The translations under genes were made by a program, and so were the position numbers. Positions 2,996 to 57,200 of a DNA stretch of 64,000 bases are shown in pieces. Under the pieces are notes generated by a model that worked only from the letters and a program-made list of their open reading frames with translations, ran no database searches and had not been told where the DNA came from. Origin of the DNA: a virus; IMG/VR virus record IMGVR_UViG_3300046008_000291, positions 62,001-126,000 of that record; one strand, given 5' to 3'. Each line of letters opens with the position of its first letter. Position 1 is the first letter of the stretch.

Positions 2996-5900
2996 TTATA
3001 CCTTAATATATGTTGTTTGTATTTTTACTGCATTACCAGCATTTGCACCTTGGTATGATAACTCAACTGTCCCGCTAGTATACGTCGCTGATATAGTACC
3101 TAAACTTGCTGTACCTGTATACATAGTAGCATATTGGTTTTTGTATGCAGTGGTGCCATTGTGTACTACTAATACTTCAGCAGTTTCATACTCGCCTAGT
3201 GACGAATTTGAAATTGACAATACATATTTTGCACTTCTGTATACTGTTGCATCAAATGTATCAATCACCACATCCGAAGTACCCACCGATACTGCAGCTG
3301 GATCTGCTACAATAATTCTAGCAACAAGAGCATCGGTATAAGTATTCGCCCAACGTTTGTCGGTGGCGCCCAGATTATGAACTTCGTTACCATTTGGAAT
3401 AACATTACTATTAATGTCTGCAAAGAATATAACATTATCTGTGTTAGAATCACCAAGATTAATATTACCTGCTGTATCACCCTTGACTGTTAAGTTACCG
3501 TTAATAACAACATCATTCATGAATGTTGCTGTACCAGTAGCTGCCGAAATACTCATTCTAGTTTCAACTGTGCTTGTACCGGCTATTACGTTAGCAAAGG
3601 TATCATTAACTTTAAATTGTACATAGCCATTACCGTTGGATAATGCTGATACTGTTGTGGATGTACTTAATGCTCTAGCATCAATGATATCACCAACAGC
3701 CGGAGCTTCGGTGAATGTTAATACATCACTGTTTATTCCACCTACACTATATGATAGTGTTGGATATTGCACAACTCCGTTAATTGCAACAATAAGAGCT
3801 GATGTTGTTGATGGCGCCGATAATGTAAAGTTAGTTGCAACTCCGTTACCTGTAAATGCATTTGTTGTAACTAATGTAAATGAGCTACCTGCTACTTGCC
3901 ATGATGTACCATCAAAGAATTCAATATTGTTGGATGATGTACTATATCGTGCCATACCTATAACATCAGTGGCACCGGAATTACTTGGACGTTGACTAAC
4001 ATCACCAACTGGTAATATAATTGCACTTGAACCGGTAAATGTTGCTATAGATCCGGCAACAGCCGATGTTAAGTTGCCGCCAAACACCACAGCATTATTA
4101 GTACTATCTGCTAAGAATAAACTAGATGAATTTGTACCTTTAACAACAAAGTTTTCATTCGATTGCGTATCGTTTATTACTGCGCCATTACCCACAAACA
4201 AGCTATCACTAATACCAACACCGCCAACTACAACTAATGCACCTGTCGATATACTTGTACTTACTGTTCCACTTTGAGCAATCAAATTACCGTTTTGTGT
4301 AATTTGTACGCCAATATTACCAAGAGTTGTTGGATAGAGGCTAGTTCTTAATGTAGTTCCTGTAGCAAACTGCATTCCGGTAGCCGAGTATACATAAGTT
4401 CCATTGCTATCACCTGATGCAATGCCACCACCATAGGTATTATCATTAGCTTTTATTTGGATAGATCTTCTGCCAGAACCTTGTTCGTGGTAGATACCCT
4501 GATTGTTTATTGTAGTATATGATGAGTAAAATACAGTATTATCACCAAATGTTACATTAGCACCATCGACAGTTAAGTTGCCGCCTGCTGTAATTGATTT
4601 AGCAGCACTAATACCGCCGTCTACACTTAATGCACCGCCGCCAGAAAAGTCACTTTCAGTAGTATCACTAAACGTAACTTGTCCAGCAACAGATAATTCA
4701 CCTGATACTGTTGCATTACCTGAAATATACGCTAATCCATCAATTGTAACATTGCTAGTAGTGTCAGTGAATGTTACAAATCCATTGTAGAAATTAGCGG
4801 ATGAATTAGATATTGTAAACACATTAACAGCATCAACATTAGCTGTAATTGTACCATTGCCCGAATCAGATACAGTAACGTCTGTATTATTTTGTAAAAT
4901 AGAGGTAGCACTAGCTGAAGCCAGTGTAGTAGTTAAATAATCTAATGTTACTGCATCTTGTGCGCTGACCGGATTAGCAATATTAGATATCAACGAGCCT
5001 GTTGCATCAATTACACCACCTGCATCTGGATTCAATGTAACATTACCACTGCCGCCAATTACAGAAATTTCTGCGGTATCACCATTAATACTAAAGTTTT
5101 TAACTGTTAAAATGTTTGATGCAAAGGTAAAGTCAGATGAGTCAGATAATAAGCCACCTGTGCCAGCATAGGTAATTCTTGTTGCAGTTAAGCCTGTGTC
5201 TGTTACAGTTGTAAATGTACCAGCTGCGGCAGATACGTTACCAATTACAGTACTGTTAATATCACGTGCTGTTACTGTTAATGCAACATCTAAATCGTTA
5301 TTGACCGTTGTAGTACCTGTGGCTGCACCAACACTTAATGTTGTTGCTGCACCTGCAAAGTTTACTGTAGTGGCTGTTGTGTTAACTAGATCAAAGCTAC
5401 TAGTACCTGCTACCAATGATGTTTCTAATGTAGGGCTTGTACTGAATACTAAATTACCAGTGCCTGTTTCGTCGGTAACAGCATCTAGTAAATTACTACT
5501 TGATGGTGTTGCTAAGAATGTAGCTACATTTGCTCCAAAGCCAGTAACACCTGTTAACGGTAAGCCGGTTGCATTAGATAAGTTAGCAAAACTAGGTGTG
5601 CCGATGTTTGGCGTTGTTAGTACTGGACTTGTACTGAATACCAAATTACCAGTGCCAGTTTCATCTGTTACTACTGTGATTAAATTACTACTTGAAGGGG
5701 TGGCTAAGAATGTAGCTACTCCTGTAGCAAGTCCACTAACCCCTGTACTTATAGGCAAGTCTGTTGCATTAGATAAGTTAGCAAAGCCAGGTGTGCCAAT
5801 GTTTGGTGTTGTTAGTACTGGGCTATTACTGAATACTATATTACCTGTACCAGTAGCGCCAGATGATGTAACTCCTTCTAATGTTACATGGCCAGTTACA

Positions 5901-8900
5901 CCAAGTGTGCCACCAACTGTAGCATTACCAATAATGTTTGTTGTTTCGTTACGTATGTTTGCTATACCGGTGGTAGCACCAACTATAAGTGTTGTTGCTG
6001 CACCAAATGCATTTACAGTTGTAGCATTAGTATTGAATACATCTTGTGTTGCTTGTGTGCCAACTACTGCCGGGTTATTGATAGTCAACGTACCACTTGT
6101 GGCACCAAATTCTAAATCAGTTGCAGCTTTAAACGCATCAACTGTTGTAGCATTTGCATTTACTAAGTTAAATGTACTAGCAGTGGTTGTAATGTCTCCA
6201 CCATTAACTGCTAAGTTAGCAGTTAACGTAGTTTCACCAGTGACTGATAATGTACTACCTACTGTAGCGGCGCCAATAATATTTGTAGTTGCATTACGTA
6301 TATTTGCAATACCTGTTGTGCTACCTAATATAAGTGCAGTTGCTCCACCTGCAAAGTTTATCGTGGTAGCAGTGGTATTAAATAGGTTTGCTGTTGTTGC
6401 ACTTGTGGTGATGTCGTTACCACTTAATGTTGTTACAGAGTTGCCATCAAACGACGTTACTGTAAATCTCGGAGCTACTGTAACAGTGCCTGTGAAATTG
6501 GCACCCGGTGTAACTATATTTTTATTAAAATTAACTGATTGGGTTGCATTAGTCCATAAAATAGTTGCATTGGCGCCATCTATGGTTAGACCTGCACCGT
6601 TAGCGGCTGCTGGATTTGCAGCGCCTTTAGCCACTGTGATGTTTAAATCTTCAACATCTAATGTTGCTGTGTTAACTGATGTTACAGACCCATCAACCTG
6701 CAAGTTACCTGTGATAACTACATCACCACCTACGTTTAAGTTTTGAGCAATACCAACACCACCAAGTGTAGTAATTGCACCAGTTGAACTGTTAATACTT
6801 TGTGTAGTATCAGTTGCGTTAATGTTACCACTAATATCTACATTAGCATCAAATGTTACTGTTTTTGCAAACTGTGCTGTACTGTTGCTAACGTGGAATC
6901 CACGTCCTACACTAGCATCAACTGTAACATTTCCAATAAACTGACTGGTAGTTTGAACAAACAATGAACCACCAACGGATACATTAGAAGTAGCGTCATC
7001 TATTACTAATAAATCTGTAAAGTATGCCGCTGAATTTGTTGTAATGGTCGAAACTAATACACCGTCTACATTAGTTGTGATAACACCTGCCACGTTACCA
7101 TTGTCTGTTATAGTGATATCGGAATTATCTGTTTGTAAGTTTGTAACACCACTGTTAATTTGTGTGTTTAAATAACTTAATGTAACTGCATCTTGCAGAT
7201 CTGTAGGGTCAGCAATATTTGCCACAGTCGCACCGTTGCCATCAATTACATTGGTGCTAGCTGATAAGTTAAGATTGCCACCAACTGCAGCGATAGTATT
7301 AGTTTCACCGTTAATCGATACATTTCTAATAGATAGTGTGTCTGTAACAAACGTCAAGTTTGCGCTATCGTCTAAATCTCCACCAGTACCGGCAAATGTT
7401 ACTCTAGTTGCTGTTAATGATTCGTCGGTTACTGATGTAAATTTACCAGAGGCTGCAGTTACTGACCCAATTGGTGTTGCTTGTATACTATTTGCTGAAA
7501 GTGTAGCACCAACTACTGCATTACCTTCAATGTTTGTAGTTGCATTGCGGATGTTTGCTGTACCCGAAGTATCACCAAGTATTAGTGTAGTGGCGGCACC
7601 AAATGCATTTACTGTAGTAGCAGTTGTATTAAATACATCTTGTGTTGTTTGTGAGCCAACTACAGTTGGGTTATTAATTGTTAATGTACCAGTTGTAGCA
7701 CCTAGATCAATGGTAGTCGCTGCACCAGCAAAGTTTACAGTAGTAGCATTGGCATCAACTAAATTAAATGTGCTGGCACTTGTAGTTAAATCACCACCAT
7801 TAACAGCTAAATCATCAGTTAGTGTTACCGCACCAGTTACACCCATTGTACCAGCAACTACTAAATTACCAAGTACATTCGTAGTTGCATTACGTATGTT
7901 TGCAATGCCTGTAGTTGCGCCTACTATTAATGTAGTGGCAGCACCAAATGCATTTACTGTAGTTGCTGTTGTGTTGTATAAATCTTGTGTTGTTTGTGAG
8001 CCAACTACAGTTGGGTTATTAATTGTTAATGTACCAGTTGTAGCACCAAATTCTAAATCAGTAGCAGCTTTAAATGCATCTACAGTAGTAGCATTTGAGT
8101 TTAATAAATTAAATGCGCTAGCGGTAGTTGTTAAGTCACCACCATTAACTGCTAAGTCACCTGTTAAGGTAATATTAGCCAATGTTAAGTCTAAGCTGTA
8201 TGTAACTTCTTTAGTAACACTATTGTATTGTAATGTACCTACGTTGCCAGTGGCATTTCTAATTGGGTTTACATAGAAGCTGTCTGTTTGTGCCGCTACG
8301 CCGTTAGTTTGATCTCCGCTAGCATTAAGAACAATAGTTCTAGCAGGTTGAGCAAGATATCCAGCTTTGTATCCTATAGAAATTGCATAATCACCGTTTT
8401 CACTGTGAGCAGCTTCATAGCCTATTGCTATCGATCCTATACTTTGGTTGTATTGACCTGCCCAAGCGCCAACTGCTACGGCGTATTGTTCTTGTTGCAG
8501 AGTTCCAGAATATATACCAACCGCAACAGTTTCTGTAGCTTGAGTAGTTAAACCAGCACTACGTCCTATGGCTACAGCATAATCTGATTGTGTATTCTCT
8601 CCTGCAAACGCACCAATAGCTACCGAGCTAGGTCCTTGACTAGTTAAACCAGCACTGTGTCCAAATGCTACTGCATTGCCAGACGTGTCTTTAATTACCG
8701 CACCATTAGCTAGGGTAATAATATTACCCATTGTAAGTTTACCGCCTACAGTAGCATTACCAATAATATTGGTAGTTGCATTACGTATGTTTGCTATGCC
8801 AGTAGTTGCACCCACTATTAATGTGGTAGCTGCTCCAGCAAAGTTTAGTGTTGTAGCAACTGTATTATATAAGTCCTGCGTTGTTTGTGAGCCAACTACA

Positions 8901-10000
8901 GTCGGGTTGTTAATCGTTAGTGTGCCAGTTGTAGCACCAATATCAATAGTTGTTGCCGCACCAGCAAAGTTTACTGTGGTAGCATCTGTATCAATTAAAT
9001 TAAATGTAGCCGCTGTGGTAGTTAAATCACCACCGTTAACAGCAACATCTCCTACAGTTGTAAAGTTACCAGTACCTGATAAGTTTGCTACTAGTGTTGT
9101 AGCACCATACCATTTAAAGTTAAATGAGTCACCATATTCCGGAACGCTCGTCCATAATGTTGCAGAATCGATACCAATAGCGTAATCAACTGTGCTACCA
9201 CTTAGTGCAGGATAAAGAACTACTTTAGTACCATCGGTTCTTGTAGTAAATGCCGGAGCACCTGTGCCGTTTGTGTTCCAATCTATACGATTGCTGGTGC
9301 TACCGTTTAGGTAAATTTGGCCATCACCTGTTGTAGCACTACCAGCACGTGTAGTAACTATTTGCCCAGGTGTTGTTACAGTAGCATTGTTTAAGGTTAG
9401 TGTACCAGTTGATGCACCAATACCCAAGGTAGTTGCAGCACCAAATGCGCTGATTGTAGTAGCATCAGTGTTTAATAGATTAAATGTAGTGGCAGTTGTG
9501 GTTATATCGCCGCCATTAACTGCTAGATCGCCAGTTAATGTAAGATTGCCGGCGCCAATATCATCTATTGTTGTAATGCCAGCGACTGTAAGATTACCAA
9601 CTTTTAAGTTAGCAAATCCGCTGTTGTCAATAGTGGCGTAGCTTGTGCCAGTTTCAGTTGTATAAGTGAGTTCAAATTGGTTATCATTTTCGTTCCAAAT
9701 CAACGCTGTGCTGGTTTGATTACCACGATTGAATATTAGACCAACATCGTAACTGTTTGTTCCAGTAAACGCATTGTTTAGGACAATTAATGGATCGTTA
9801 ACATAAGTGTTGGTACTTGCTACAGTAAGGTAACTACTAGCACCTTGAACTGTTAGATTACCAGTAATGGTAACATCACTGGCTACTGTTAGATTAGCAT
9901 TAAATAAGCTACCTACAATAGATCCTGGAACAATCTTGGTGTTAGCAAGGATCGTTGAATCCGTAATCTGATTATTCTTAATTCTGGTTAGAACTGCCAT
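2996..10000 (-). CDS. Giant repetitive tail fiber-like protein (2334 aa)
   Basis: A single uninterrupted frame of 2334 residues made almost wholly of Thr/Asn/Ala/Gly/Val-rich beta repeats. The N-terminus (MAVLTRIKNNQITDSTI, then GNLTVQG) is typical of aquatic T4-like fiber proteins. Recurring elements include LAVNGGDLTTTAS (several copies), TINNPTVVGSQTTQD (four close copies) and NIRNATTNIIGNA (five close copies). Residues about 440-560 carry a run of AIGxxAG units resembling the head repeats of YadA-type trimeric adhesins. Near residues 2010-2100 is a module also found in the 1642-aa fiber and the 138-aa protein (PVGDVSQRPSN, a short Trp-containing strand, then an INGVVQ strand). The C-terminus ends in a compact beta domain (YQGANAGNAVKI). 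It probably forms a long trimeric fiber. It lies downstream of shorter fiber genes and upstream of a glycosyltransferase-like gene. Confidence 0.8.
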   Translation of the reverse strand: MAVLTRIKNNQITDSTILANTKIVPGSIVGSLFNANLTVASDVTITGNLTVQGASSYLTVASTNTYVNDPLIVLNNAFTGTNSYDVGLIFNRGNQTSTALIWNENDNQFELTYTTETGTSYATIDNSGFANLKVGNLTVAGITTIDDIGAGNLTLTGDLAVNGGDITTTATTFNLLNTDATTISAFGAATTLGIGASTGTLTLNNATVTTPGQIVTTRAGSATTGDGQIYLNGSTSNRIDWNTNGTGAPAFTTRTDGTKVVLYPALSGSTVDYAIGIDSATLWTSVPEYGDSFNFKWYGATTLVANLSGTGNFTTVGDVAVNGGDLTTTAATFNLIDTDATTVNFAGAATTIDIGATTGTLTINNPTVVGSQTTQDLYNTVATTLNFAGAATTLIVGATTGIANIRNATTNIIGNATVGGKLTMGNIITLANGAVIKDTSGNAVAFGHSAGLTSQGPSSVAIGAFAGENTQSDYAVAIGRSAGLTTQATETVAVGIYSGTLQQEQYAVAVGAWAGQYNQSIGSIAIGYEAAHSENGDYAISIGYKAGYLAQPARTIVLNASGDQTNGVAAQTDSFYVNPIRNATGNVGTLQYNSVTKEVTYSLDLTLANITLTGDLAVNGGDLTTTASAFNLLNSNATTVDAFKAATDLEFGATTGTLTINNPTVVGSQTTQDLYNTTATTVNAFGAATTLIVGATTGIANIRNATTNVLGNLVVAGTMGVTGAVTLTDDLAVNGGDLTTSASTFNLVDANATTVNFAGAATTIDLGATTGTLTINNPTVVGSQTTQDVFNTTATTVNAFGAATTLILGDTSGTANIRNATTNIEGNAVVGATLSANSIQATPIGSVTAASGKFTSVTDESLTATRVTFAGTGGDLDDSANLTFVTDTLSIRNVSINGETNTIAAVGGNLNLSASTNVIDGNGATVANIADPTDLQDAVTLSYLNTQINSGVTNLQTDNSDITITDNGNVAGVITTNVDGVLVSTITTNSAAYFTDLLVIDDATSNVSVGGSLFVQTTSQFIGNVTVDASVGRGFHVSNSTAQFAKTVTFDANVDISGNINATDTTQSINSSTGAITTLGGVGIAQNLNVGGDVVITGNLQVDGSVTSVNTATLDVEDLNITVAKGAANPAAANGAGLTIDGANATILWTNATQSVNFNKNIVTPGANFTGTVTVAPRFTVTSFDGNSVTTLSGNDITTSATTANLFNTTATTINFAGGATALILGSTTGIANIRNATTNIIGAATVGSTLSVTGETTLTANLAVNGGDITTTASTFNLVNANATTVDAFKAATDLEFGATSGTLTINNPAVVGTQATQDVFNTNATTVNAFGAATTLIVGATTGIANIRNETTNIIGNATVGGTLGVTGHVTLEGVTSSGATGTGNIVFSNSPVLTTPNIGTPGFANLSNATDLPISTGVSGLATGVATFLATPSSSNLITVVTDETGTGNLVFSTSPVLTTPNIGTPSFANLSNATGLPLTGVTGFGANVATFLATPSSSNLLDAVTDETGTGNLVFSTSPTLETSLVAGTSSFDLVNTTATTVNFAGAATTLSVGAATGTTTVNNDLDVALTVTARDINSTVIGNVSAAAGTFTTVTDTGLTATRITYAGTGGLLSDSSDFTFASNILTVKNFSINGDTAEISVIGGSGNVTLNPDAGGVIDATGSLISNIANPVSAQDAVTLDYLTTTLASASATSILQNNTDVTVSDSGNGTITANVDAVNVFTISNSSANFYNGFVTFTDTTSNVTIDGLAYISGNATVSGELSVAGQVTFSDTTESDFSGGGALSVDGGISAAKSITAGGNLTVDGANVTFGDNTVFYSSYTTINNQGIYHEQGSGRRSIQIKANDNTYGGGIASGDSNGTYVYSATGMQFATGTTLRTSLYPTTLGNIGVQITQNGNLIAQSGTVSTSISTGALVVVGGVGISDSLFVGNGAVINDTQSNENFVVKGTNSSSLFLADSTNNAVVFGGNLTSAVAGSIATFTGSSAIILPVGDVSQRPSNSGATDVIGMARYSTSSNNIEFFDGTSWQVAGSSFTLVTTNAFTGNGVATNFTLSAPSTTSALIVAINGVVQYPTLSYSVGGINSDVLTFTEAPAVGDIIDARALSTSTTVSALSNGNGYVQFKVNDTFANVIAGTSTVETRMSISAATGTATFMNDVVINGNLTVKGDTAGNINLGDSNTDNVIFFADINSNVIPNGNEVHNLGATDKRWANTYTDALVARIIVADPAAVSVGTSDVVIDTFDATVYRSAKYVLSISNSSLGEYETAEVLVVHNGTTAYKNQYATMYTGTASLGTISATYTSGTVELSYQGANAGNAVKIQTTYIKV
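5870..9560 (-). repeat. Degenerate long repeats within the giant fiber gene
   Basis: Units of about 100 codons recur several times. Each contains a TTATTVNAFGAATTL-like stretch, a NIRNATTN-like stretch, an LAVNGGD-like stretch and a TINNPTVVG-like stretch. Some copies are nearly identical in DNA over tens of bases, for example around 7630-7690, 7980-8040 and 8880-8930. The copies stay in frame and encode a beta-rich shaft. They could recombine with each other and change fiber length. Confidence 0.75.
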
Positions 10001-10144: not shown

Positions 10145-10261
10145 TTAGCGCAACTCATACCAAAATAACTGGGTGGCTGATGTACCAGTTGAAGTAACTA
10201 TGTAAGTTGACCCTGTTTGTATATTATGTAGTACGTCTGGTGTTACCTGTGTTAATGCCAT
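10145..10261 (-). CDS. 38-residue mini-protein copying a fiber N-terminus
   Basis: The frame runs from ATG at 10261 to TAA at 10145. The first 15 residues (MALTQVTPDVLHNIQ) are identical to the start of the 250-residue fiber protein encoded at 12027-12779, after which the sequence differs (TGSTYIVTSTGTSATQLFWYELR). The upstream DNA is duplicated too: about 72 bases, with two differences, are shared between 10216-10287 and 12734-12805, including the late-promoter-like box. It may be a cut-down fiber gene left by duplication, or a small tail protein using the same N-terminal anchor. A similar short protein as a real virion component cannot be excluded. Confidence 0.55.
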   Translation of the reverse strand: MALTQVTPDVLHNIQTGSTYIVTSTGTSATQLFWYELR

Positions 10262-10281
10262 AGTTATTCTCTGTTATAGTG

Positions 10282-10289
10282 TATTTACT
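10282..10289 (-). promoter_or_regulatory. Late promoter-like box before the mini-protein
   Basis: The minus strand reads AGTAAATA followed by CACTATAACAGAG, the same extended element found before the genes at 40571 and 12779. It lies 21 bases upstream of the ATG at 10261. Confidence 0.5.
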
Positions 10290-10346
10290 ACTTTTGCTGG
10301 GTTAATATTGATCATTTTCCCTGTGAATATTATTTATAGTACATTT

Positions 10347-10451
10347 TTACATGTGGCCTTCTGCAAATATGTTTACAAATACTGTATCATCTTCTAGTGC
10401 TTCAATTTCGTGCCATTCCTTATTATACTGCGGCAAGTTTTGCCTCTTCAG
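10347..10451 (-). pseudogene. Start-less remnant, possibly the end of a cupin-like gene
   Basis: A 34-codon open frame ends at a TAA at 10347-10349 and overlaps the last bases of the 131-residue gene in another frame. Its product ends with EWHEIEALEDDTVFVNIFAEGHM, which looks like the closing strands of a small cupin protein. There is no ATG in frame and a stop closes the frame just upstream, so it is at most the 3' end of a lost gene. The cupin idea rests only on this short tail. Confidence 0.3.
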
Positions 10452-10818
10452 TTATTTTCTTTTCAGCAATTACAGTAGGATAGTCTAGTTCACCAGCAAT
10501 AATTTGTGCCTTTAATGCTTCTAATACTAGGCGTGCTTTATTTTGCTCTACTCTTTCAGAACGCAACAATGAACGCAATTTATCACGGTATTGGTATTGA
10601 GCTATTGTCTGAACATCTTCATCACTCATATCCCAGGGTAAATTTTGCGTGTCTGTATTAATATGTTGTGCTAGATTATCAGGAATAGCGTCGGTTGGTA
10701 AACCAGTAAGCATCACAGTATAGTTGTCTACATTTATTTGGTATTGATAGACTTCCTTTTCTCTGTGGTATGCGTTTGTTACTAAAGTATCTAAATGTTC
10801 ATCTTGTGTTACTATCAT
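10423..10818 (-). CDS. Conserved hypothetical protein next to a tail adhesin (131 aa)
   Basis: A 131-residue charged, mainly helical protein that I do not recognise. The N-terminal half is mixed (VYQYQINVDNYTVMLTGLP). The C-terminal half is helical and basic, then acidic (RDKLRSLLRSERVEQNKARL through AEKKITEEAKLAAV). It starts 21 bases after the beta-propeller adhesin gene, with a Shine-Dalgarno GGAG before the ATG. A second, truncated copy of its last 47 codons lies at 12876-13019 downstream of the other adhesin, so an adhesin plus this gene appears to be a repeated unit. Size, helical character and position would fit a tail fiber assembly factor, but this is inference. Confidence 0.65.
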   Translation of the reverse strand: MIVTQDEHLDTLVTNAYHREKEVYQYQINVDNYTVMLTGLPTDAIPDNLAQHINTDTQNLPWDMSDEDVQTIAQYQYRDKLRSLLRSERVEQNKARLVLEALKAQIIAGELDYPTVIAEKKITEEAKLAAV

Positions 10819-10839: not shown

Positions 10840-12027
10840 TTAAATGTAGTTAACAGCTAGTCGGGAGCTATTAGTAGGTGCATTTGCTGGGTCGGCATAT
10901 TTAGCTCCGAATCCATTGGACCAAACGTATGCCTGCATAATACCGCCAGTGCCTTGGTATTGATACGCACAAAGCACTATTACGGTTTCTGAAATATTAA
11001 ATCCGACGGAGCTAACTTGGTCCATCCCGTAATTGAGGTTTATTGGCGTCACTGGGTCGGCATATTTACTGCCAAATCCGTTGGACCAAGCGTATACAGT
11101 TACAAAAGGGAAGTGATTGTGACCAACAGCTATAGCATTTCCTGAAGGGCTAAATGTAGCGTTCCATGCACTGCCTTGGGGTGACCATAATGGGTTTGAG
11201 CCTATTGGCGTCGCTGGGGCGGCATATTTACTGCCGAATCCATTGGACCACGCCCATACATGTATATATGGTGCTATGTTAGCTACGGGAACGGCCAGAG
11301 CAGTCCCTTGCGGATTAAAGGTAATTGCTGATAGGTTATTGCCTGATCCTAGCTGAGTTGGACTGGTATATTTACTGCCAAATCCACTAGAAAAAGACCA
11401 TGCTTCGACGTAACTCCGCTGGACCATTGCTAGCACAGTTCCTTGCGGATTAAAGCACACACCTTGCCCACGGGCACCAAGTGGCAGCGATGCCGGATCG
11501 GCATATTTAATTCCAACTCCAGTAGTATTAGACCAAGAGTATGCAGATATCCTTATACCTGTAGTGGAAGCAACAGCTATTGCATCATCCGAAGGAGTAA
11601 AGGCTATAGTAGTAACAATAGTCGGTGGTGGTGTTGCTGGGTCGGCATATTTACTTCCAAATCCGCTGGACCAAGAGTATGCAACTATTCCCGGAGTTCC
11701 AGATTGTACGACTGCTATTGCTGTGCTCGAATGAGTAAACTTTAACGATCCCGGAGAAGATAATGCTGCCGACGGGTCGGCATATTTAGCGCCGAATCCA
11801 TTGGACCACGGCCATGCATATACATACGGTGCCAAAGCCGACGACATAGCTATCACTGTTCGTAAGTTACTTTTACCAAATCCGTTGCTCAAAGTAATAC
11901 GGCCGCTGGCTATTTCAAATAAGGTTCGCACAGCACTATCACTTAATTTGCGACTAGTGTTAGCTGCAACACCAAGTTCTACGTTGATGTCACTGAATTT
12001 AATTACACCACTGGATGGTAACGGCAT
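10840..12027 (-). CDS. Seven-repeat beta-propeller adhesin on a shared tail anchor
   Basis: A 395-residue protein. Residues 1-55 (MPLPSSGVIKFSDINVELG, then DSAVRTLFEIASG and GFGKSN) form an anchor shared with the glycine-rich adhesin at 14498-15454. The rest consists of seven repeats of about 47 residues. Each has a strand like FNPQGTALAVA followed by a strand like PYVHVWAWSNGFGSKYADPATP, and the last copy is followed by a short closing strand (SRLAVNYI). This is the pattern of a seven-bladed WD40-like beta-propeller. It overlaps the fiber gene upstream by one base (TAATG). The likely role is receptor binding at a fiber tip; the receptor is unknown. The repeat count is read directly; the fold is inferred. 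Confidence 0.72.
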   Translation of the reverse strand: MPLPSSGVIKFSDINVELGVAANTSRKLSDSAVRTLFEIASGRITLSNGFGKSNLRTVIAMSSALAPYVYAWPWSNGFGAKYADPSAALSSPGSLKFTHSSTAIAVVQSGTPGIVAYSWSSGFGSKYADPATPPPTIVTTIAFTPSDDAIAVASTTGIRISAYSWSNTTGVGIKYADPASLPLGARGQGVCFNPQGTVLAMVQRSYVEAWSFSSGFGSKYTSPTQLGSGNNLSAITFNPQGTALAVPVANIAPYIHVWAWSNGFGSKYAAPATPIGSNPLWSPQGSAWNATFSPSGNAIAVGHNHFPFVTVYAWSNGFGSKYADPVTPINLNYGMDQVSSVGFNISETVIVLCAYQYQGTGGIMQAYVWSNGFGAKYADPANAPTNSSRLAVNYI

Positions 12028-12779
12028 TACGGGGTTCCAAAGCCTGCTATGTCGCCAGTGACAGTTACGGTACCTGAGGTGTTCAGGCTCATTTTAACTG
12101 CGCCATTGTAGGCAAAATATAAACTAGTACCAGTTTCGTAAATCTGCCAACCCGTGAATTTAACGTTGGCACTGGTTGTAACATTGCCAGTGAATGTGGC
12201 TCCACTTAAATCAGCCTTACTTGCAATTTGTCCAGACTGTGTTGCAGCATTGCTAGTTAGAGTAGCAATACTACCAGCTTGTACTCCAGCATTGGCTGTC
12301 CATGCAGTAGTAACTGCGTCAACATAACCTTTCATGTTGGTGTTGGCTGTGGTTATCGATGAACTAGTAGTTGATATTTGTCCATCAACATAACCTTTCA
12401 TGTTGGTATTGGCCGTAACTATTGCAGCATTAGCACCCGTAATTGAACTACTTACTGTAGTGATTTCATTTGATTGTATAGTATTGGCTGCATCAACATA
12501 ACCTTTCATGTTGGTGTTGGCTGTAACTATTGCTGCATTCGCTCCAGCAACTGAATTACTAACGGTTGTAACTGCTGATCCTAGCGCATAACTGGCGGCT
12601 GCTGTTCCGCCAAGGAAGCTGGCATTATTTGCTAGACTAGCAGTTCCTGTAAAATTAGTTGCAGTTACATTACCTGATGTGATATTACCAGTGACCGATA
12701 GGTTACTTAGAGTACCTACTTGGGTAACATTACTTTGTATATTATGTAGTACGTCCGGTGTTACCTGTGTTAATGCCAT
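12027..12779 (-). CDS. Short tail fiber protein with coiled MKGYVD repeats
   Basis: A 250-residue protein. It begins MALTQVTPDVLHNIQSNVTQVGTL and continues with LSVTGNITSGNVTATNFTG, the usual fiber N-terminus and beta shaft. The centre has four copies of NTNMKGYVD separated by SNxITxANAAI-like helical stretches, which should form a trimeric coiled coil. The C-terminus is a small beta domain (GWQIYETGTSLYFAYNGA). The same MKGYVD coil is found in the 1642-residue fiber, so this looks like a shortened relative of that gene. Its stop overlaps the start of the beta-propeller adhesin, so fiber and adhesin are probably co-translated and co-assembled. A late-promoter-like box lies 21-28 bases upstream. 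Confidence 0.72.
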   Translation of the reverse strand: MALTQVTPDVLHNIQSNVTQVGTLSNLSVTGNITSGNVTATNFTGTASLANNASFLGGTAAASYALGSAVTTVSNSVAGANAAIVTANTNMKGYVDAANTIQSNEITTVSSSITGANAAIVTANTNMKGYVDGQISTTSSSITTANTNMKGYVDAVTTAWTANAGVQAGSIATLTSNAATQSGQIASKADLSGATFTGNVTTSANVKFTGWQIYETGTSLYFAYNGAVKMSLNTSGTVTVTGDIAGFGTP

Positions 12780-12799
12780 AGTTATTCTCTGTTATATTG

Positions 12800-12807
12800 T
12801 ATTTAAC
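12800..12807 (-). promoter_or_regulatory. Late promoter-like box before the short fiber gene
   Basis: The minus strand reads GTTAAATA followed by CAATATAACAGAG, matching the extended late element in this phage. It lies 21 bases upstream of the ATG at 12779. Confidence 0.5.
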
Positions 12808-12875
12808 TAAAAGTTTTACATTACACCCGTTTAATATCAACTATAATATAGGAACACTTAAAGACAGTCTTTTAC

Positions 12876-13019
12876 CTAACTATTTGCAGCTACTTTAGCG
12901 TCTTCTACAATCTTCTTTTCAGCAATTGCGGTTGTGTAATCTAATCCACCAGCAATGATTTGTGCTTTTAATGCCTCTAATACAAGTCTAACTTTATTTT
13001 GTTCTACTCTTTCGGAACG
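12876..13019 (-). pseudogene. Truncated second copy of the 131-residue gene
   Basis: Read on the minus strand, this stretch encodes 47 residues from RSERVEQNKVRLVLEALKAQ to AKVAANS followed by TAG. It is clearly homologous to the C-terminal third of the protein at 10423-10818 (RSERVEQNKARLVLEALKAQ and onward). Homology stops abruptly at about 13020, and upstream there is only the end of the truncated adenylating enzyme gene. No start codon or ribosome site is left. It marks a recombination junction that removed the 5' two-thirds of this copy. Confidence 0.8.
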
Positions 13020-13038
13020 CGGGCAATGTCTTATCTTA

Positions 13039-13896
13039 TTATGTAGCAATTATATTATCATATTTCAATGGTATTCCATTTGCTTTATAAAACCCCAATG
13101 TTTCTGTGGAGCCTTCCCCATTAAGAAAGGCCGCACCTTTTAATTGATTAATCGGTGCAAAGCCAGCATTGACTGCCAACCTTACGCCTGTGAATTCCTC
13201 ATCTTTAATAAATTCAAAATGACGCGGAGTTCCAGCAAAAATACTTGGCTTATATGTGTTTATATAATGGCATAAATTTAATTTTGATGGACTAGCATCC
13301 AATAAAATTGCGGTTATATCATTTTTTAATGCAACACAAATTGATAATGCAAAACCGTATGCGTGTGTTATTTTTTCCGCACAAAATAAACTTCTATCAT
13401 TTGTATCCAAAAGCAAATCCCCCATATATTCGCCCACATTTAACAATGTTTTTGGCGTATGCGAAATGAATTTTGGGGCGCCTGTTCTGCCTGATGTATG
13501 AAAAACAATACATTCTAAATCTTGCTCAAAATCTAATTGAGTTTCAATTGGCTTGAAATTTGAATAATCTATTTCATTTGCAATGATTAAAGAATTTTCA
13601 AATTTTTTTTTGGCTTGATTTAAAGTATTAAAATTATGCTCAACGCCACATTTCCCCGAACCTACTAAAACTGGGATGGCACCAATCCACATTGAACCAA
13701 ATATAGCAATTGGTAAAAAAGCCGTATCAGGCAGTTTTATAATAATAAAATTGCCCTTTTGGATATTTAAAAATTTTAAATAATTAGCAAATTTTTTAAT
13801 TGATAAAAAAATTTCATCACTTGAATGTGCCCCATTTTTATCAATAAAACATGGGTTGTTTTTATTGGTTAAAAAAAATTGTGAAATGAAATTCAT
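13039..13896 (-). CDS. Truncated ANL-superfamily adenylating enzyme (AMP-binding domain)
   Basis: A 285-residue protein with the AMP-binding signature FHTSGRTGAPK at residues 132-142 (motif A3, normally YTSGTTGxPK) and GEGSTET at 260-266 (motif A5, normally YGxTE). These define the acyl-CoA synthetase / adenylation-domain / luciferase superfamily. Full enzymes are about 500 residues. Here the protein ends 19 residues after A5, so the aspartate that binds the ribose (A7) and the whole C-terminal lid with its catalytic lysine (A10) are missing. Its 3' end lies about 20 bases from a recombination scar. The gene has long A/T runs and a different codon bias from its neighbours. Its ATG overlaps the upstream gene as ATGA. 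It could bind an acyl or amino-acid substrate without catalysis, or be a decaying import. Confidence 0.75.
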   Translation of the reverse strand: MNFISQFFLTNKNNPCFIDKNGAHSSDEIFLSIKKFANYLKFLNIQKGNFIIIKLPDTAFLPIAIFGSMWIGAIPVLVGSGKCGVEHNFNTLNQAKKKFENSLIIANEIDYSNFKPIETQLDFEQDLECIVFHTSGRTGAPKFISHTPKTLLNVGEYMGDLLLDTNDRSLFCAEKITHAYGFALSICVALKNDITAILLDASPSKLNLCHYINTYKPSIFAGTPRHFEFIKDEEFTGVRLAVNAGFAPINQLKGAAFLNGEGSTETLGFYKANGIPLKYDNIIAT

Positions 13897-14501
13897 TGTA
13901 TCAATTTTACATTTGATGAAATTTGATTTTTATTTATAAAACAAGCAAAAATTGATGGCTTAAATATATTTTCATTAACTATGTTATTGATAATTTCAAT
14001 TGCTTCAATTTTTGAATTGGCTTGAATATGGGTGCCAGTCCATAAATTAAACACTTGAAAAATTCCATCATTTTCATACGTTTCTATTGAATCAACACCG
14101 CACCATTCAACATCATTATTTTCATGATATTTTACCAAAGCGACTGAAGTCATTTTTTTGTATTTTTCAAATATAGATTCATAAATGATTTTTTGATTTT
14201 TTTTTGCTTCATTTAAAGTATTAAATTTTTGTTCAATTTCCAATACTTGGTTGTAAATAAAATAATGACTTACAGCATAACTTTCATTCCAATAATCCCA
14301 AGCATTGGTTGAATTAAATAAACTTTCCCACCATTTCAACGCTTCTTGGTCCTCTGTTTCTAAAGCTATATTGAAAACCTCATTATCTGTTTTCCCAGTC
14401 AACGGCTCATTTAATGAATTTTTACCATTAAAAAAATCCAAACCTTCTTGGCAAATTTCAACATCAGCTAATTTAATTAGATCTAAATTTACAGTTCTCA
14501 T
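13893..14501 (-). CDS. Unknown protein between an adhesin and an adenylating enzyme (202 aa)
   Basis: A 202-residue protein that I do not recognise. The N-terminal half is acidic and rich in Trp and Asn (ALKWWESLFNSTNAWDYWNE), the centre is helical, and the C-terminal half is mixed alpha/beta. Residues 93-101 (FNTLNEAKK) closely match residues 89-97 of the adjacent adenylating enzyme (FNTLNQAKK), so the two share a short element. Both ends are ATGA overlaps: with the glycine-rich adhesin upstream and with the enzyme downstream, so all three are probably translationally coupled. The strongly AT-rich DNA with runs of A and T matches the downstream gene and differs from the fiber genes, suggesting a common foreign origin. 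Confidence 0.65.
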   Translation of the reverse strand: MRTVNLDLIKLADVEICQEGLDFFNGKNSLNEPLTGKTDNEVFNIALETEDQEALKWWESLFNSTNAWDYWNESYAVSHYFIYNQVLEIEQKFNTLNEAKKNQKIIYESIFEKYKKMTSVALVKYHENNDVEWCGVDSIETYENDGIFQVFNLWTGTHIQANSKIEAIEIINNIVNENIFKPSIFACFINKNQISSNVKLIQ

Positions 14502-15454
14502 GATACAGCCCCATAAACACGAGTTGTATTACCGCTTGTCCAAGTAACAGTGTATCCATTAAGCGCGACTGCTTTGCCACCTGCTCCACCAGCATATCCA
14601 CTCGCCGCTGCACCCCCTGCCGCCCCCCAGCCGCCACCACCGCCGCCGCTAACGGCTGCGCTGCTTATGCCCCCACCGGCATTTGCGCTACCGCCAGCAC
14701 CACCACCAGCAGTGCCACCAGCACCACCTGAGCCGGCAAATATACGGCCACCGCCACCGCCGGGATACCCTGTGGTAGATTTGCCTGAACCAGCTTGCCC
14801 ACCACCGCCACCGCCGGCGCCGCCACCTTTACCGCCTGAGGCGCCACCTGTTCCATTTGTACCGGCAGAGCCGACGCCGCCACCTACTCCGCCACCACTT
14901 TGCTGGCCAGCGTTACCGCCGCCAGCACCGCCACCACCTTGGAAAAAGCCCCCGCCACCACCGCCGCCGCCAATATAAGCAGAAGCATTCGTATTATTTA
15001 TTGTCACGATTGAACCAAGGCTTATGGCATTTCCACCGGCTAAACCTGTATATGGTGCTGTTGACGTGCCACCAGCACCACCCATTCCAGCAATAAATCC
15101 ATTGTTAATGATAGTTAAGCCGCCAGGAAAACTTCCGGTGGTTAATGCAGGAGTTCCCGTAGAAGTGGAATAAATCCAAACTCCCGAACCGATAGTGATT
15201 GTTGCGGCAGTAGAACCATCCCATCCATTCGCTAAAGCCCAAGTTCTTAAATTCAAATTGGTTTGATTTGATGAAATGGTTGCCAAGAACGCATTTGACT
15301 TACCATAGCCAACATTCATTGCTATAGCACCACTGCTTACTCCAAATAGTGTTCGTACCGCACTATCATTTAATGATATCTGTGCGGTGGCGGTTAAGCC
15401 AAGTTCTACGTTGATGTTGTTAAAGGATATCGCACCACTGGATGGTAAAGGCAT
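14498..15454 (-). CDS. Glycine-rich receptor-binding adhesin on a shared tail anchor
   Basis: A 318-residue protein. Residues 1-55 match the anchor of the beta-propeller adhesin at 10840-12027 (MPLPSSGAISFNNINVELG, then DSAVRTLFGVSSG and GYGKSN). The middle is a beta region. Roughly residues 155-295 are almost pure glycine with Ala and Ser, arranged in short poly-Gly runs, followed by a C-terminal strand (YTVTWTSGNTTRVYGAVS). Such glycine-rich runs are known from T-even gp38-type adhesins, where they pack as polyglycine-II helices and display receptor-binding loops; that structural analogy is inference. It lies one base downstream of the 1642-residue fiber and overlaps the next gene as ATGA. 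Confidence 0.75.
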   Translation of the reverse strand: MPLPSSGAISFNNINVELGLTATAQISLNDSAVRTLFGVSSGAIAMNVGYGKSNAFLATISSNQTNLNLRTWALANGWDGSTAATITIGSGVWIYSTSTGTPALTTGSFPGGLTIINNGFIAGMGGAGGTSTAPYTGLAGGNAISLGSIVTINNTNASAYIGGGGGGGGFFQGGGGAGGGNAGQQSGGGVGGGVGSAGTNGTGGASGGKGGGAGGGGGGQAGSGKSTTGYPGGGGGRIFAGSGGAGGTAGGGAGGSANAGGGISSAAVSGGGGGGWGAAGGAAASGYAGGAGGKAVALNGYTVTWTSGNTTRVYGAVS

Positions 15455-51254: not shown

Positions 51255-54200
51255 ATGGCGACAAAAAAGACTTCAAATTTTCTTCCTACCATATTTCAAA
51301 CCGATACTAACAATAAGTTTTTGTCGGCAACAATGGATCAGTTAGTAACTGAGCCAAATTTAAGAAATATACACGGCTATATCGGAAGAACATTTGCTCC
51401 AACTTATAAAAGTAAAGACAGCTATGTAATCGAAAATTCAGCTGAAAGACAAAAGTATCAACTTGAACCAGGTATTGTTGTTCGCAATGATCGACAAGAA
51501 ATTACATTTTTTGCCAGTTATACTGATCTGTTAAACAAAATTGAATATTATGGTGGGCTAACTGCAAACCATGATAGATTATTTGACGACGAATATTATA
51601 GCTTTGACCCACAAATATCATTTGATAAATTTATTAATTTTAGTCAATACTACTGGCTTGCAGATGGTCCAAACGCTGTTGATGTTAACACCAGCGGAGT
51701 TGATTTAGAAAAAACCTATAATGTTGTTCGTAATGTAAGTTCGTCTCGTTACGAGTTTACATCTACTAGCCCGACAAAAAATACTCTTACTCTAGCACGT
51801 GGTGGCCGATACACATTTGAAGTTGATCAATTGGGTAATCAATTCTGGATACAAACTGAATTAGGTGTAGATGGTCTAGTAAATGCAACTCCGACAGTTA
51901 GTACACGTGATGTATTCGGAGTTATTAACAACGGTGCAGACTCGGGTACAATTACATTTAATGTGCCGCAGGCAAGTGCCCAAGACAGATATGTGTTAAT
52001 GAATGTAGTGGCCAACGTAGAGTACGCAGTGCCTCTTGCCTATGCTGATATACAAAATCATACTGTTAGTCAATTCCTTGCTGCGTTTCCAGGCTATGCA
52101 GGTGTTGCTACTCAACTCAACGGTAAAACTGCAATATTCATTGATCAAAATTTATTAACAAACCGTGGTGAAGAAGCATGGACTGTACCTAATGTTTACG
52201 ATGGCAACGGTGATATTGTGTCTGGCTATAATGCCGGCGAGGTAATACCCGAGGCACAACGTTACGGAGTTTGGCGTGTACAATTTGCAGACAGTGGTGA
52301 TATCAACGATCCATTAATTCGATTGGCCTGTGTACAAGATGTACAAATCAACGAAAAGGTCTATATCAGATCTGGTGTAGTTAATGCCAATAAAGAATTC
52401 TTTAAAGATTATGATGGATTTTTTCATGTTGTTCCTGTGATATCAAGTATACAAGATACTTTGTACTTTCAAGATGGTAACAATCCGTCTATCTATGGTA
52501 CAATTAAACTAGTTGATATCGCTGGCTGGTCTATAGATGTTGAAAATGATATTTTAGGAAAAACTACATACACCAGTCCCAATGGAGTGGTATTTACTAG
52601 CGGATTGAAAATAAGATTTGGTACTGATGCTATCCCAGCAACATATCAGGATAAGGAATATTATGTAGAAGGAGTAGGGTCTGCTACAGGCATACAATTA
52701 GTTGATACAACATTATTAGTTACACCTGAACCCTACAATGATGAGATTATCACTAATTATCCATTGAATAGAATTAGTTTAAGTGCAGTTACTACAGATG
52801 TAATCCCTGCAGGTACTGTTATTAACATTGGCACTATTGAAGTTGAAGTATATTATGAAGTTACAGTTGGATCTTTGTACATTGTTACATTGAGCGATGT
52901 ATCTTCAATAGTAAATGGATCGGCTATAACTGGAACAGGCATTGCCAGCGGAACATCAGTAATCAATACACGTCGAGACACTGTGTATCCAGAATATATT
53001 ACCATTAACAGAGCTAGTGTAGATTTAAATGCATGGTCGAGAAATAATCGATGGTTCCATCGAGATATAATCACTGCCACTGCTACCTATAACAATGAAC
53101 AATATATATTTGACCAAGACCTTCGCGCACGTCGTCCAATTGTACAGTTTGAATCAGACCTGCAATTGTTCAATTACGGCAGGATTGGAAAAGCACCAGT
53201 TGATATATTAGATACTACAACACAAGATGCATTTAATAATTTGAATGGACAGGTATTTTCTGTAGCGTTTGGAGTCACATTATTTGATGGCATGCGAGTT
53301 ATATTTGCCAACGATGTTGATCCGTTGGTTCGTAATAAAATTTTTGTACTTAATTTAGTGCAAACTGCAATTGATGGTGAAGGATTATTAACTGGGCCCA
53401 AATATATAAATTTAAATCCAGCTGCCGATGGTGCAGTTGAAACTTACGATTCTGTAGTTATAACTGATGGTGTTTACAAAGGCACTCAGTGGTGGTACAA
53501 TGGTGATACTTGGATAGCTAGTCAGCAAAAAACTAGCCTACAACAAGATCCGTTATTTGACATGTACGATAGTGCTGAACAGAGTTTTTCGCTTTATCCG
53601 TTGAGTACGTTTACCGGCACACGATTATTTGGCTACAACAGATCAAGTACCGGCACTATTTCTGATTCAGTATTGGCCTTTCCGCTGACTTACACATCAT
53701 TCCAAACTCAGGGAAATATTGAATTCATCAATTACTTTGATACTGATACGTTTAGTTATGTAGCTAATCAAACTCAACTTACTGAACGAATTGCCACAGG
53801 GTTCCTACATCAAATAGTAGATAGATACACATCACTACCAAAAAATAATTGGAATACAGTTACTGAAAAAAATAATCAATATCAATTGATTACCTATGTA
53901 TACGATGGTATTAATAGTCCATTTAAAATTGATGTCACTGTACCAGATGCAGTTACGATACCATATGTTAAAGTTTATAAAAATAATGTATTCTTAAAAA
54001 CATCTCAATGGACTTTAACAAATGGAGCATTGACATTATCCACTGCACCTACTATAGGTGATAAGATCGACATTCTAGTCTATAGTAATGAAGTAAGTGC
54101 GCTTGGGCAATACCAGATACCAAAAAATCTAGAGCTCAATGCACAAAATACTGATTTATCAACATTGACATTGGGTCAAATCAGAAATCACCTAGTGGAA

Positions 54201-57200
54201 CTAAGTCAAAATAGTACAGAGTTAGTGGGTGATGTACTCAGTGATAGTAATCTTAGAGATATTGAGATTAAATCACAAGGCGGCACCATATTACAACACA
54301 GTGCACCTTTATCGAATGCAGCATTATTTTTAGTAAATGACAGCACAAACTTTATTGACGCCGTTCGTTACGCACAGCAAGAATATGCTAGATTTAAAAA
54401 TAAATTTTTAGAGTTAAGTGTAACTTTGTCTGGCATACAACCGACTGATCCTGTGGCCAGTGTTGATTTAATCATAACCGAAATTAATAAGATTAAAAAC
54501 AGTACGTTCCCTTGGTATTACAGTGACATGATACCGTATGGTACATTAAAAAATATTGTCAATGGCGTGGGCTATACAATATTTGACCCATTGGTTCGTT
54601 CATATGAAATTACTACAACATTCGATGCCCGTGCATTAAGTAATAAAGCAGTACTTGTTTATTTAAATGATGTACAGTTAATAATAGATATAGATTATAC
54701 ATTTGATACAGATCGTCCAGCAATAACGTTTACCGACACTGTTACTTTGGAAGTTGATGACAATGTTAAAATTGTAGAATATGCAGATACTAATGGATCT
54801 TATGTACCAGAAACTCCAACTAAGTTAGGGTTATATCCTAAATTTATTCCTGAGATCTTTTTAGACGATACCTATCGTACATCCATTAATGTTATTCGCG
54901 GCCACGACGGTAGCATAACACCAGCATTTGATGATTATAGAGATGAATTTTTATTAGAGTTAGAAAAACGTATATACAATAACATCACGCTGCGTGATAT
55001 CGGTAGCTATCAAGACATTTATAACGTAATGCCGGGTAAATTTAGAAATAATGATTATTCGATAAATGAAATAAATCAATTAACGTCTAAGAATTTCCTT
55101 ATATGGATAGGCAATAATAAAATTGATTTCACAGTCAACGACACATTTGACAGCAATGATCCCTTTACATGGAATTACAGCCGTTTTGTGGATCGAATTG
55201 ATAGTGAAGCATTACCAGGTAGTTGGAGAGCATGCTATCAATATTTCTATGATACATTACGTCCGCATTTAACTCCGTGGGAGATGTTGGGTTTCTCTAC
55301 CATGCCATCATGGTGGGTAGAAGAATACGGTCCTGCACCTTATACTGGCGGCAATAAATTACTATGGGACGACCTAGAAGCTGGATTGATTAAACAAGGT
55401 ACTCGCGCAGGTATAGATACAACCTTTGCACGCCCTGGATTGTCAGAAGTTATACCAGTTGATGCAAACGGATTTTTATTAAGTCCGGCAGCAATAATGA
55501 CTGCATCATTTAATGCTACTCATGCGGCAACTGCATGGGCAGTAGGACAACAGGGACCGGTCGAAACAGCGTGGCGCCACAGCAGTGACTTTGCGTTTGC
55601 TGTACAACAAGCACTGGCATTGGCTAAACCAGCCAAGTATTTTAGTCTATTAATGGATGTGTCACGTTATTCAAAAAATACTATGTTGGAGCAATATGTA
55701 ACTGATACCAATGATCACATTAAACAAACATCACTGACATTCAATGGTGACACATCAGCTGGCACTGTGGTTAGAACCGCCGGTTATATAAACTGGATTG
55801 CTGACTTTTTAATACATCAAGGTGTAGATCCTGCTACTGTTATTACTCCGCTGATATCACATTATCAAATTAATCTTGCATATAAACTGGCCGGATTTAG
55901 TGATCAAAAATATCTACAAATTTTAGCAGAACAAAGTTCACCGACCAGTACAAATGATAGTATTATTGTACCAAATGAAAATTATAATGTACATTTGTAT
56001 AAATCGACGCCTGTTGACAAACTAGTCTACAGTGGTGTGATTATTGAAAAGACCACAAATGGCTATAGTGTACGTGGGTATAATTTAGCTAACCCGTACT
56101 TTACTATTATTCCAAGTGTGATAAATTCAAATGCATACAAAATTACTGTATTAACTAATTCAGTAACAGTGTTTAAAGATTATCAAAACTTAAAATTAAC
56201 CGTACCTTATGGGTATGAGTTTAATAGCCAACAACAAATAGCTGATTTCTTAATTAGCTACGAAAGATATTTAATGGCGCAGGGTTTTACCTTCAATGAC
56301 ACAGATGAACAACTAGGCGAAACACGCAACTGGAAACTATCAACTAAAGAATTCTTATTCTGGGCACAGCAAGGTTGGGCACCGGGCAGTATCTTAGTAT
56401 TATCACCGGTGGCTAACACAATAAATGCAGTTACAGTTGGTGCAATCACTGATGCAATTACTGATAGTCAGCATGGTTCAAAAGTATTAGATCAAAATTT
56501 TGCCTTGGTTAAAACTACAAATTACAATGTGTTACGTAGCCCAACTGCATTTAAATTAACATTGACCAATGATGCAGTTATTGGCTATATTGAATTAAAT
56601 CTAGTACAATACGAGCATGTGTTAATTTTTGATAACACCACAGTGTTTAATGATATCATTTACAAACCTGAACTTGGTAATAGACAATACAGGTTAAAAT
56701 TGATTGGACAAAAAACCGCAGACTGGGATGGCAGTTTAAGTGCGCCAGGCTTCATCTACAATTCTGGCAACATAGATGCGTGGTCCAGTAATAAAGATTA
56801 TTTAAAAGGTGACCTAGTACAATATAAAAATCAATATTATGTTGCATTGAATAATGTTACTCAAACAACTAATGCTGAATTTGCCTTTGCTTATTGGAAA
56901 CAAATTGCCGCAAGTGAAATTAAAAAAGGGCTATTGCCAAACTTTGCCACCATTGCTGCTAAATCTCAGGTATATTATGATTCATATACAAATTTTAAAG
57001 ATGCGGATCAAATCAACTACAGCCATGGATTAATTGGATTTAAAACACGTCAATATCTGTCAGATCTTGGTTTAAGTGATACGACACAAATTGAATTATA
57101 CAAAGGATTCATTAAACAAAAAGGTTCTGCTAATGCAATTAATCAATTGACCAGTGCAGAATTTAATAATTTAAGCAGTGCCATAAATTTCTATGAAGAA

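Follow-up and report, generated by a model that had tools for sequence, protein, structure and literature searches.

A shortened AMP-binding gene behind a glycine-rich tail adhesin in a phage with T4-type genes

Why does a tail-fibre block hold a gene for an AMP-binding protein of the ANL superfamily? The gene lies in a 64,000-nucleotide stretch of DNA (the window) from a virus record of 177,658 bp, which carries T4-type genes including those for gp23 and a prohead protease. We propose, with a probability of roughly 0.6, that this gene and its upstream neighbour form a cassette carried as cargo by an adhesin-linked exchange module, the ANL piece being a shortened passenger.

Gene layout and the two cassette proteins

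The tail-fibre block is encoded on the minus strand and runs from a 1642 amino acid fibre protein through a 318 amino acid glycine-rich adhesin to proteins of 202 and 285 amino acids; downstream follow a 250 amino acid fibre-like protein, a second adhesin of 395 amino acids and a 131 amino acid protein. The first adhesin (14498..15454; 31% Gly; phrog_10745, 26746 and 26817) is a receptor-binding protein, gp38-like by its make-up. The gene immediately 3' of it, for the 202 amino acid protein (13893..14501), overlaps it by ATGA, and the ANL gene (13039..13896) overlaps the 202 amino acid gene in the same way. A sequence-only reading made earlier had described this arrangement; both open reading frames were found exactly at the positions it gave, and both overlaps were borne out. 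The second adhesin (10840..12027) has weak similarity to beta-propeller-type proteins and an N-terminal domain in common with the first; its partner is the 131 amino acid protein (10423..10818, minus strand).

In a Pfam profile search the 285 amino acid protein matched PF00501 (E-value=3.3e-18, 66.1 bits against a cut-off of 29.9) in two stretches, the better of which spans positions 160–293 of the 384 in the profile; the same search found no PF13193 lid in it. Alignment with full-length relatives identified motifs A3 (TSGRTGAPK) and A5 (NGEGSTE) with their key residues, the A3 Lys and A5 Glu. Since the chain stops 21 residues from the A5 Glu (this residue included), against 185–237 in the relatives, A7, the hinge, A8–A10 and the lid are all absent. 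Alignment and profile search thus agree with the sequence-only reading, which had A3 and A5 kept and A7 and the lid lost. Internal shortening was overlooked there: G72 and A3 lie 63 residues apart, versus 87–111 in the aligned bacterial relatives, and two segments before A5 have 21 and 20 residues versus 25–30 (4–10 fewer each). The distance from G72 to A3 is 59 residues in a compact full-length viral ANL protein (L038). This complete protein of 454 amino acids, with core and lid, is encoded at 3278–4642 of a 110-kb viral contig, next to genes which by eye were named as SDR, Rieske-type and asparagine-synthase-like.

In ANL enzymes the A7 aspartate holds the ribose, and adenylation requires both this residue and the A10 lysine. 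The 285 amino acid protein has none of the features of an active ligase downstream of A5, that is, the A7 Asp, the GRxD hinge and the C-terminal lid with the A10 Lys; because these are missing it should neither adenylate nor transfer, and from its sequence ligase activity is very unlikely. Among solved structures the best matches are to benzoate- and anthranilate-CoA ligases (PDB accession numbers 2v7b, 4rlf and 5oe3), with which its N-terminal core, including A3 (TSGRTGAPKF) and A5, aligns best. The best NCBI family is TIGR02262, the benzoate-CoA ligases, but the score of 58.3 bits is far under the family cut-off of 375.25, identity is about 25%, and the phage protein is internally shortened and without A7–A10 and lid. 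It does not belong to this family.

The lid half might be encoded elsewhere in the phage, as in a split enzyme. The break does fall ahead of the hinge; it is, though, within the core domain rather than at the usual hinge, and neither a PF13193 lid nor a second PF00501 gene occurs in the 177.7-kb record, which is possibly incomplete. We regard a split enzyme as very improbable. The same record, with the same proviso, holds no acyl carrier domain, and the suggestion of the sequence-only reading that the ANL domain blocks a carrier protein finds no support in a record without a carrier domain, a second ANL gene or a lid. The missing lid and carrier domains are in keeping with a passenger.

The 202 amino acid protein had no match in Pfam, PHROGs or NCBIfam, and its best PDB hit had an E-value of 1.5; these searches linked it by sequence to no known family of tail-fibre chaperones. 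Residues 79–138 resemble proteins of 64–100 amino acids that lie behind glycine-rich adhesins elsewhere. Against one of these, a 71 amino acid protein following an adhesin in L096, the alignment is ungapped with a score of 58, reached by 1 of 20,000 shuffles. In a profile of the adhesin-following small proteins, a family defined here, the real sequences outranked all 500 shuffles, barely. The position is also that of this family, namely first gene behind a glycine-rich adhesin. Because of this similarity and position, an adhesin helper is the best guess, and the protein probably assists or helps to assemble the adhesin; the similarity is weak and to one family member, which counts against that part of our reading. 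Glycine-rich tail-fibre tips are known to come with dedicated chaperones (PMC9608196). In S16 (gp38) and Pam3 (gp24/gp25) a glycine-rich receptor-binding protein is likewise followed by a small partner gene (PMC9608196), but the 202 amino acid protein has no sequence match to chaperones in the PDB or to Pfam, PHROGs or NCBIfam families.

A repeat of about 42 bp occurs in both cassette genes on the minus strand, at 14196..14236 in the 202 amino acid gene (QKFNTLNEAKK) and at 13602..13643 in the ANL gene (HNFNTLNQAKK). It scored 26, and none of 300 codon shuffles scored above 18; both copies encode FNTLNxAKK, and the ANL copy sits in the segment where that protein is internally shortened. A direct duplication within the 202 amino acid protein, seen by eye, failed a shuffle test and was rejected.

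Boundaries and exchange of the adhesin unit

Downstream of the ANL stop codon lies the 3' end of a second copy of the 131 amino acid gene (12876..13022, minus strand), its frame still open and about 83% identical to the intact copy. It is followed by 38 bp (12842..12879, minus strand) that are the final codons of a JmjC-type gene (..GKRLSLSVPIL-stop) and match L006 and L020. In this phage group the 131 amino acid gene follows propeller-type adhesins, and other small genes follow glycine-rich ones.

A near relative, L073, is 99.7% identical to the window over 2.9 kb on the right side and 90–96% identical on the left. It has no glycine-rich adhesin, no 202 amino acid gene and no ANL gene, and the end of its fibre gene is joined straight to window position 12905. 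L004, 99.8% identical, has the cassette, but its second adhesin site (L004 9870–12645) is taken by another unit, made up of a glycine-rich adhesin, a 94 amino acid protein, a cupin-like protein, a sulfotransferase and a 50 amino acid fragment of a P-loop kinase. This fragment, with a weak APS-kinase match among others, is fused into the tail of another glycine-rich adhesin, and the last gene of the L004 unit is thus cut off in the manner of that of the window cassette. The unit of adhesin, 202 amino acid gene and ANL gene therefore varies among near-identical phages, and gene remnants delimit it. With the cassette in L001–L007, absent from L073, and a swap at the second site of L004, it behaves as cargo of a host recognition cluster.

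The sequence-only reading had described a truncated, adhesin-coupled domain and suggested its acquisition; relative to near kin such as L073, which is without the unit, the domain is indeed an import. The reading overlooked that the adhesin is the first gene of the transfer unit, that remnants of two genes lie at the right edge, and that other tailoring-type enzymes occupy the same slot elsewhere.

We envisage that the adhesin, its 202 amino acid partner and the front two-thirds of an ANL ligase gene moved together as one unit into a site of the kind that elsewhere holds a propeller-type adhesin with its 131 amino acid partner. The left crossover would have passed through the conserved adhesin start and the right one through the 3' end of the 131 amino acid gene. 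We infer passenger status for the ANL piece, which would persist in shortened form, translated from the adhesin mRNA. Its ancestor may have carried out a tailoring step on the adhesin or host surface, alongside the oxygenases, halogenases and sulfotransferases found in the same slot of other phages.

A 75-bp sequence is duplicated with 96% identity at window positions 10216–10290 and 12734–12809, one copy after each copy of the 131 amino acid gene. It contains the leader and start of a MALTQVTPDVLHNIQ gene and is likely a recombination handle.

Relatives, composition and substitution pattern

The homology search proposed by the sequence-only reading recovered phage relatives: the ANL gene is present in seven other IMG/VR contigs (L001–L007, of which L007 includes only part of it) and the 202 amino acid protein in six. 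In L001–L004 the pair lies behind the same adhesin at about 99.8–100% DNA identity to the window; so it does in L005, with protein identities of about 99% (ANL) and 95% (202 amino acids). From L001 to L005 all frames are open and the right junction is identical to that of the window. The contigs are metagenomic, and a joining of unrelated DNA during assembly might be suspected, but the same junctions recur across several independently assembled contigs, and the diverged L005 in practice refutes an artefact, the least probable of the explanations considered.

L006 is near-identical to about ANL codon 235 and from there on carries a divergent allele, in which DNA identity falls to about 75% while the protein sequence is conserved. 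Downstream of its ANL gene lie part of a 214 amino acid gene, the JmjC gene end and a PD-(D/E)XK gene. Since only 38 bp of this downstream DNA are also found in the window phage, the cassette has reached two lineages, and the occurrence of the pair in a second one favours a moving module. The divergent allele stops at nearly the same ANL codon as that of the window, where about 17 nt separate the stop from the start of the 131 amino acid gene remnant. This near-common end, and the stop ahead of the remnant, are more easily reconciled with prior shortening of the gene than with a recent truncation, and speak to that extent against our reading.

The two cassette genes look AT-rich, and the sequence-only reading had credited them with a different codon pattern and hence with an AT-rich donor. 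Total GC is 0.31 and 0.27, only slightly under expectation; neighbouring phage genes have a GC3 of 0.20–0.35, and the values for the two genes, 0.217 and 0.187, fall within this range or close to it. Their log-likelihood under phage codon usage is not lower than that of synonymous resamples, and the A/T runs, three per gene, agree with expectation from the amino-acid sequence (p = 0.12 and 0.17). The AT-rich appearance stems from amino-acid content and codon use is the phage's own; foreign codon use was rejected by the GC3 and resampling tests. With GC3, codon likelihood and A/T runs accounted for in this way, the argument for an AT-rich donor is weak.

No relative of either protein was found in a scan of 84,980 species for a bacterial source, and cellular relatives of the ANL protein from a family-level scan were about 20–35% identical among the matches listed. 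A search of 1,149 genomes from three classes returned nothing at E <= 1e-13, a weak result in that it had no positive control. A full-length bacterial operon identical to the cassette, which the sequence-only reading had named as a sign of recent accidental insertion, was not found in these scans. A scan for ANL motifs across all viral contigs returned the window group and five unrelated ANL proteins only; among INPHARED phage records, just four of Listeria matched the ANL protein (about 25% identity) and none the 202 amino acid protein. PADLOC gave no defence-system match.

The ANL gene might then be a fragment of a recently captured host gene that is merely decaying. Truncation at both the domain and the gene level would agree with this, as would its place beside the remnants of two other genes, but codon use is phage-like, all frames are open, a second lineage has been reached and the closest cellular relatives listed are distant. 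Neither stops nor frameshifts occur in the ANL gene of any contig compared, and since relatives do carry the cassette, none of the outcomes that the sequence-only reading had said would refute it was observed. We disfavour decay as unlikely.

Between the window and L005 there are 3 synonymous and 3 nonsynonymous changes in the ANL gene, and 6 and 11, respectively, in the 202 amino acid gene. Between the window and L006, ANL codons 1–235 have 4 synonymous changes and no nonsynonymous ones, and in codons 236–277 changes affect 17.2 of the 30.5 synonymous sites, as against 11.8 of the 95.5 nonsynonymous ones (Fisher p ~5e-6). This pattern of mostly synonymous changes shows constraint on the ANL sequence. 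Constraint on the truncated form in particular is only weakly shown, because the differences in the divergent part may have arisen while the gene was still longer.

Intact frames and mostly synonymous changes sit less easily with a passenger than with a maintained, lid-less fold which might bind a nucleotide, an acyl- or aryl-adenylate or a protein partner rather than act as a ligase, working together with the adhesin or the 202 amino acid protein. The purifying-type substitutions without decay in any copy, the internal shortening and near-identical end common to both alleles, the retained A3 Lys and A5 Glu and the translational coupling all favour it. On the other side, the divergent 3' alleles may date from a full-length stage, recent changes are few (the six that separate the window from L005), the A7 Asp is missing, and the gene is known from two phage lineages only. 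We consider such a maintained protein a real but minority prospect, and prefer the shortened passenger of an exchange module.

Cargo behind other adhesins

A scan with the adhesin start found 46 loci. The genes behind these adhesins include those for a small protein, 2OG-Fe(II) oxygenases, a tryptophan halogenase, TauD and, with a score below the Pfam cut-off, a cupin-like protein; at L020, found through the JmjC gene tail, the six genes behind the adhesin comprise three 2OG matches, one JmjC, one DUF6445 and one without a match. Because the cargo that follows this type of adhesin differs from phage to phage, we view the unit as an adhesin-linked exchange module in a known hypervariable host-recognition region.

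The L020 genes form a run of short genes (4949–8462) directly behind the adhesin, four having 2OG-Fe(II)/JmjC matches, and L021 has a similar run of five short genes (6924–9840). Possibly these runs are adhesin- or surface-tailoring sets. At L127 (4269–6833; also L128) genes for a tryptophan halogenase and a 2OG oxygenase follow a glycine-rich adhesin at a distance of a few genes.

In T4-like pelagimyophages and cyanomyophages the host recognition clusters are described as hypervariable and with extra genes (PMC7029224), and genes for Fe(II) oxygenases and gp38 adhesins are listed for metaviromic islands (PMC3909814). The locus is alike in being a hypervariable tail-fibre/adhesin region with extra non-structural genes. 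An ANL gene at this position was not reported in the sections covered of these two papers, nor in the part of the literature covered by full-text search ('AMP-binding' with tail fibre).

A cyanophage cluster with a halogenase, 2OG dioxygenases and cupins has been proposed to decorate the capsule or make a metabolite (PMC7824862). These kinds of enzyme match the cargo behind related adhesins here; the proposal there, in contrast, concerns a separate gene cluster, whereas the genes considered here come immediately after the adhesin, and the window phage has only a broken ligase. Perhaps aquatic phages keep exchangeable sets of tailoring enzymes (hydroxylases, a halogenase, a sulfotransferase and ligase-like proteins) behind glycine-rich adhesins, which modify the adhesin or the receptor, with the ANL protein as a working lid-less member; we think this wider reading doubtful, more so than maintenance of the short protein as such.

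The general pattern is one of receptor-binding adhesins that travel among phages with their own downstream cargo, rich in protein- or sugar-modifying enzymes. Should the adhesin be the target of its cargo, chemical decoration would be a requirement for receptor binding by the phage; otherwise the locus clearly documents how module exchange leaves truncated genes at the edges. Elsewhere in the window, positions 51255–63998 are occupied by a single open frame of at least 4248 amino acids, which continues past the window end.
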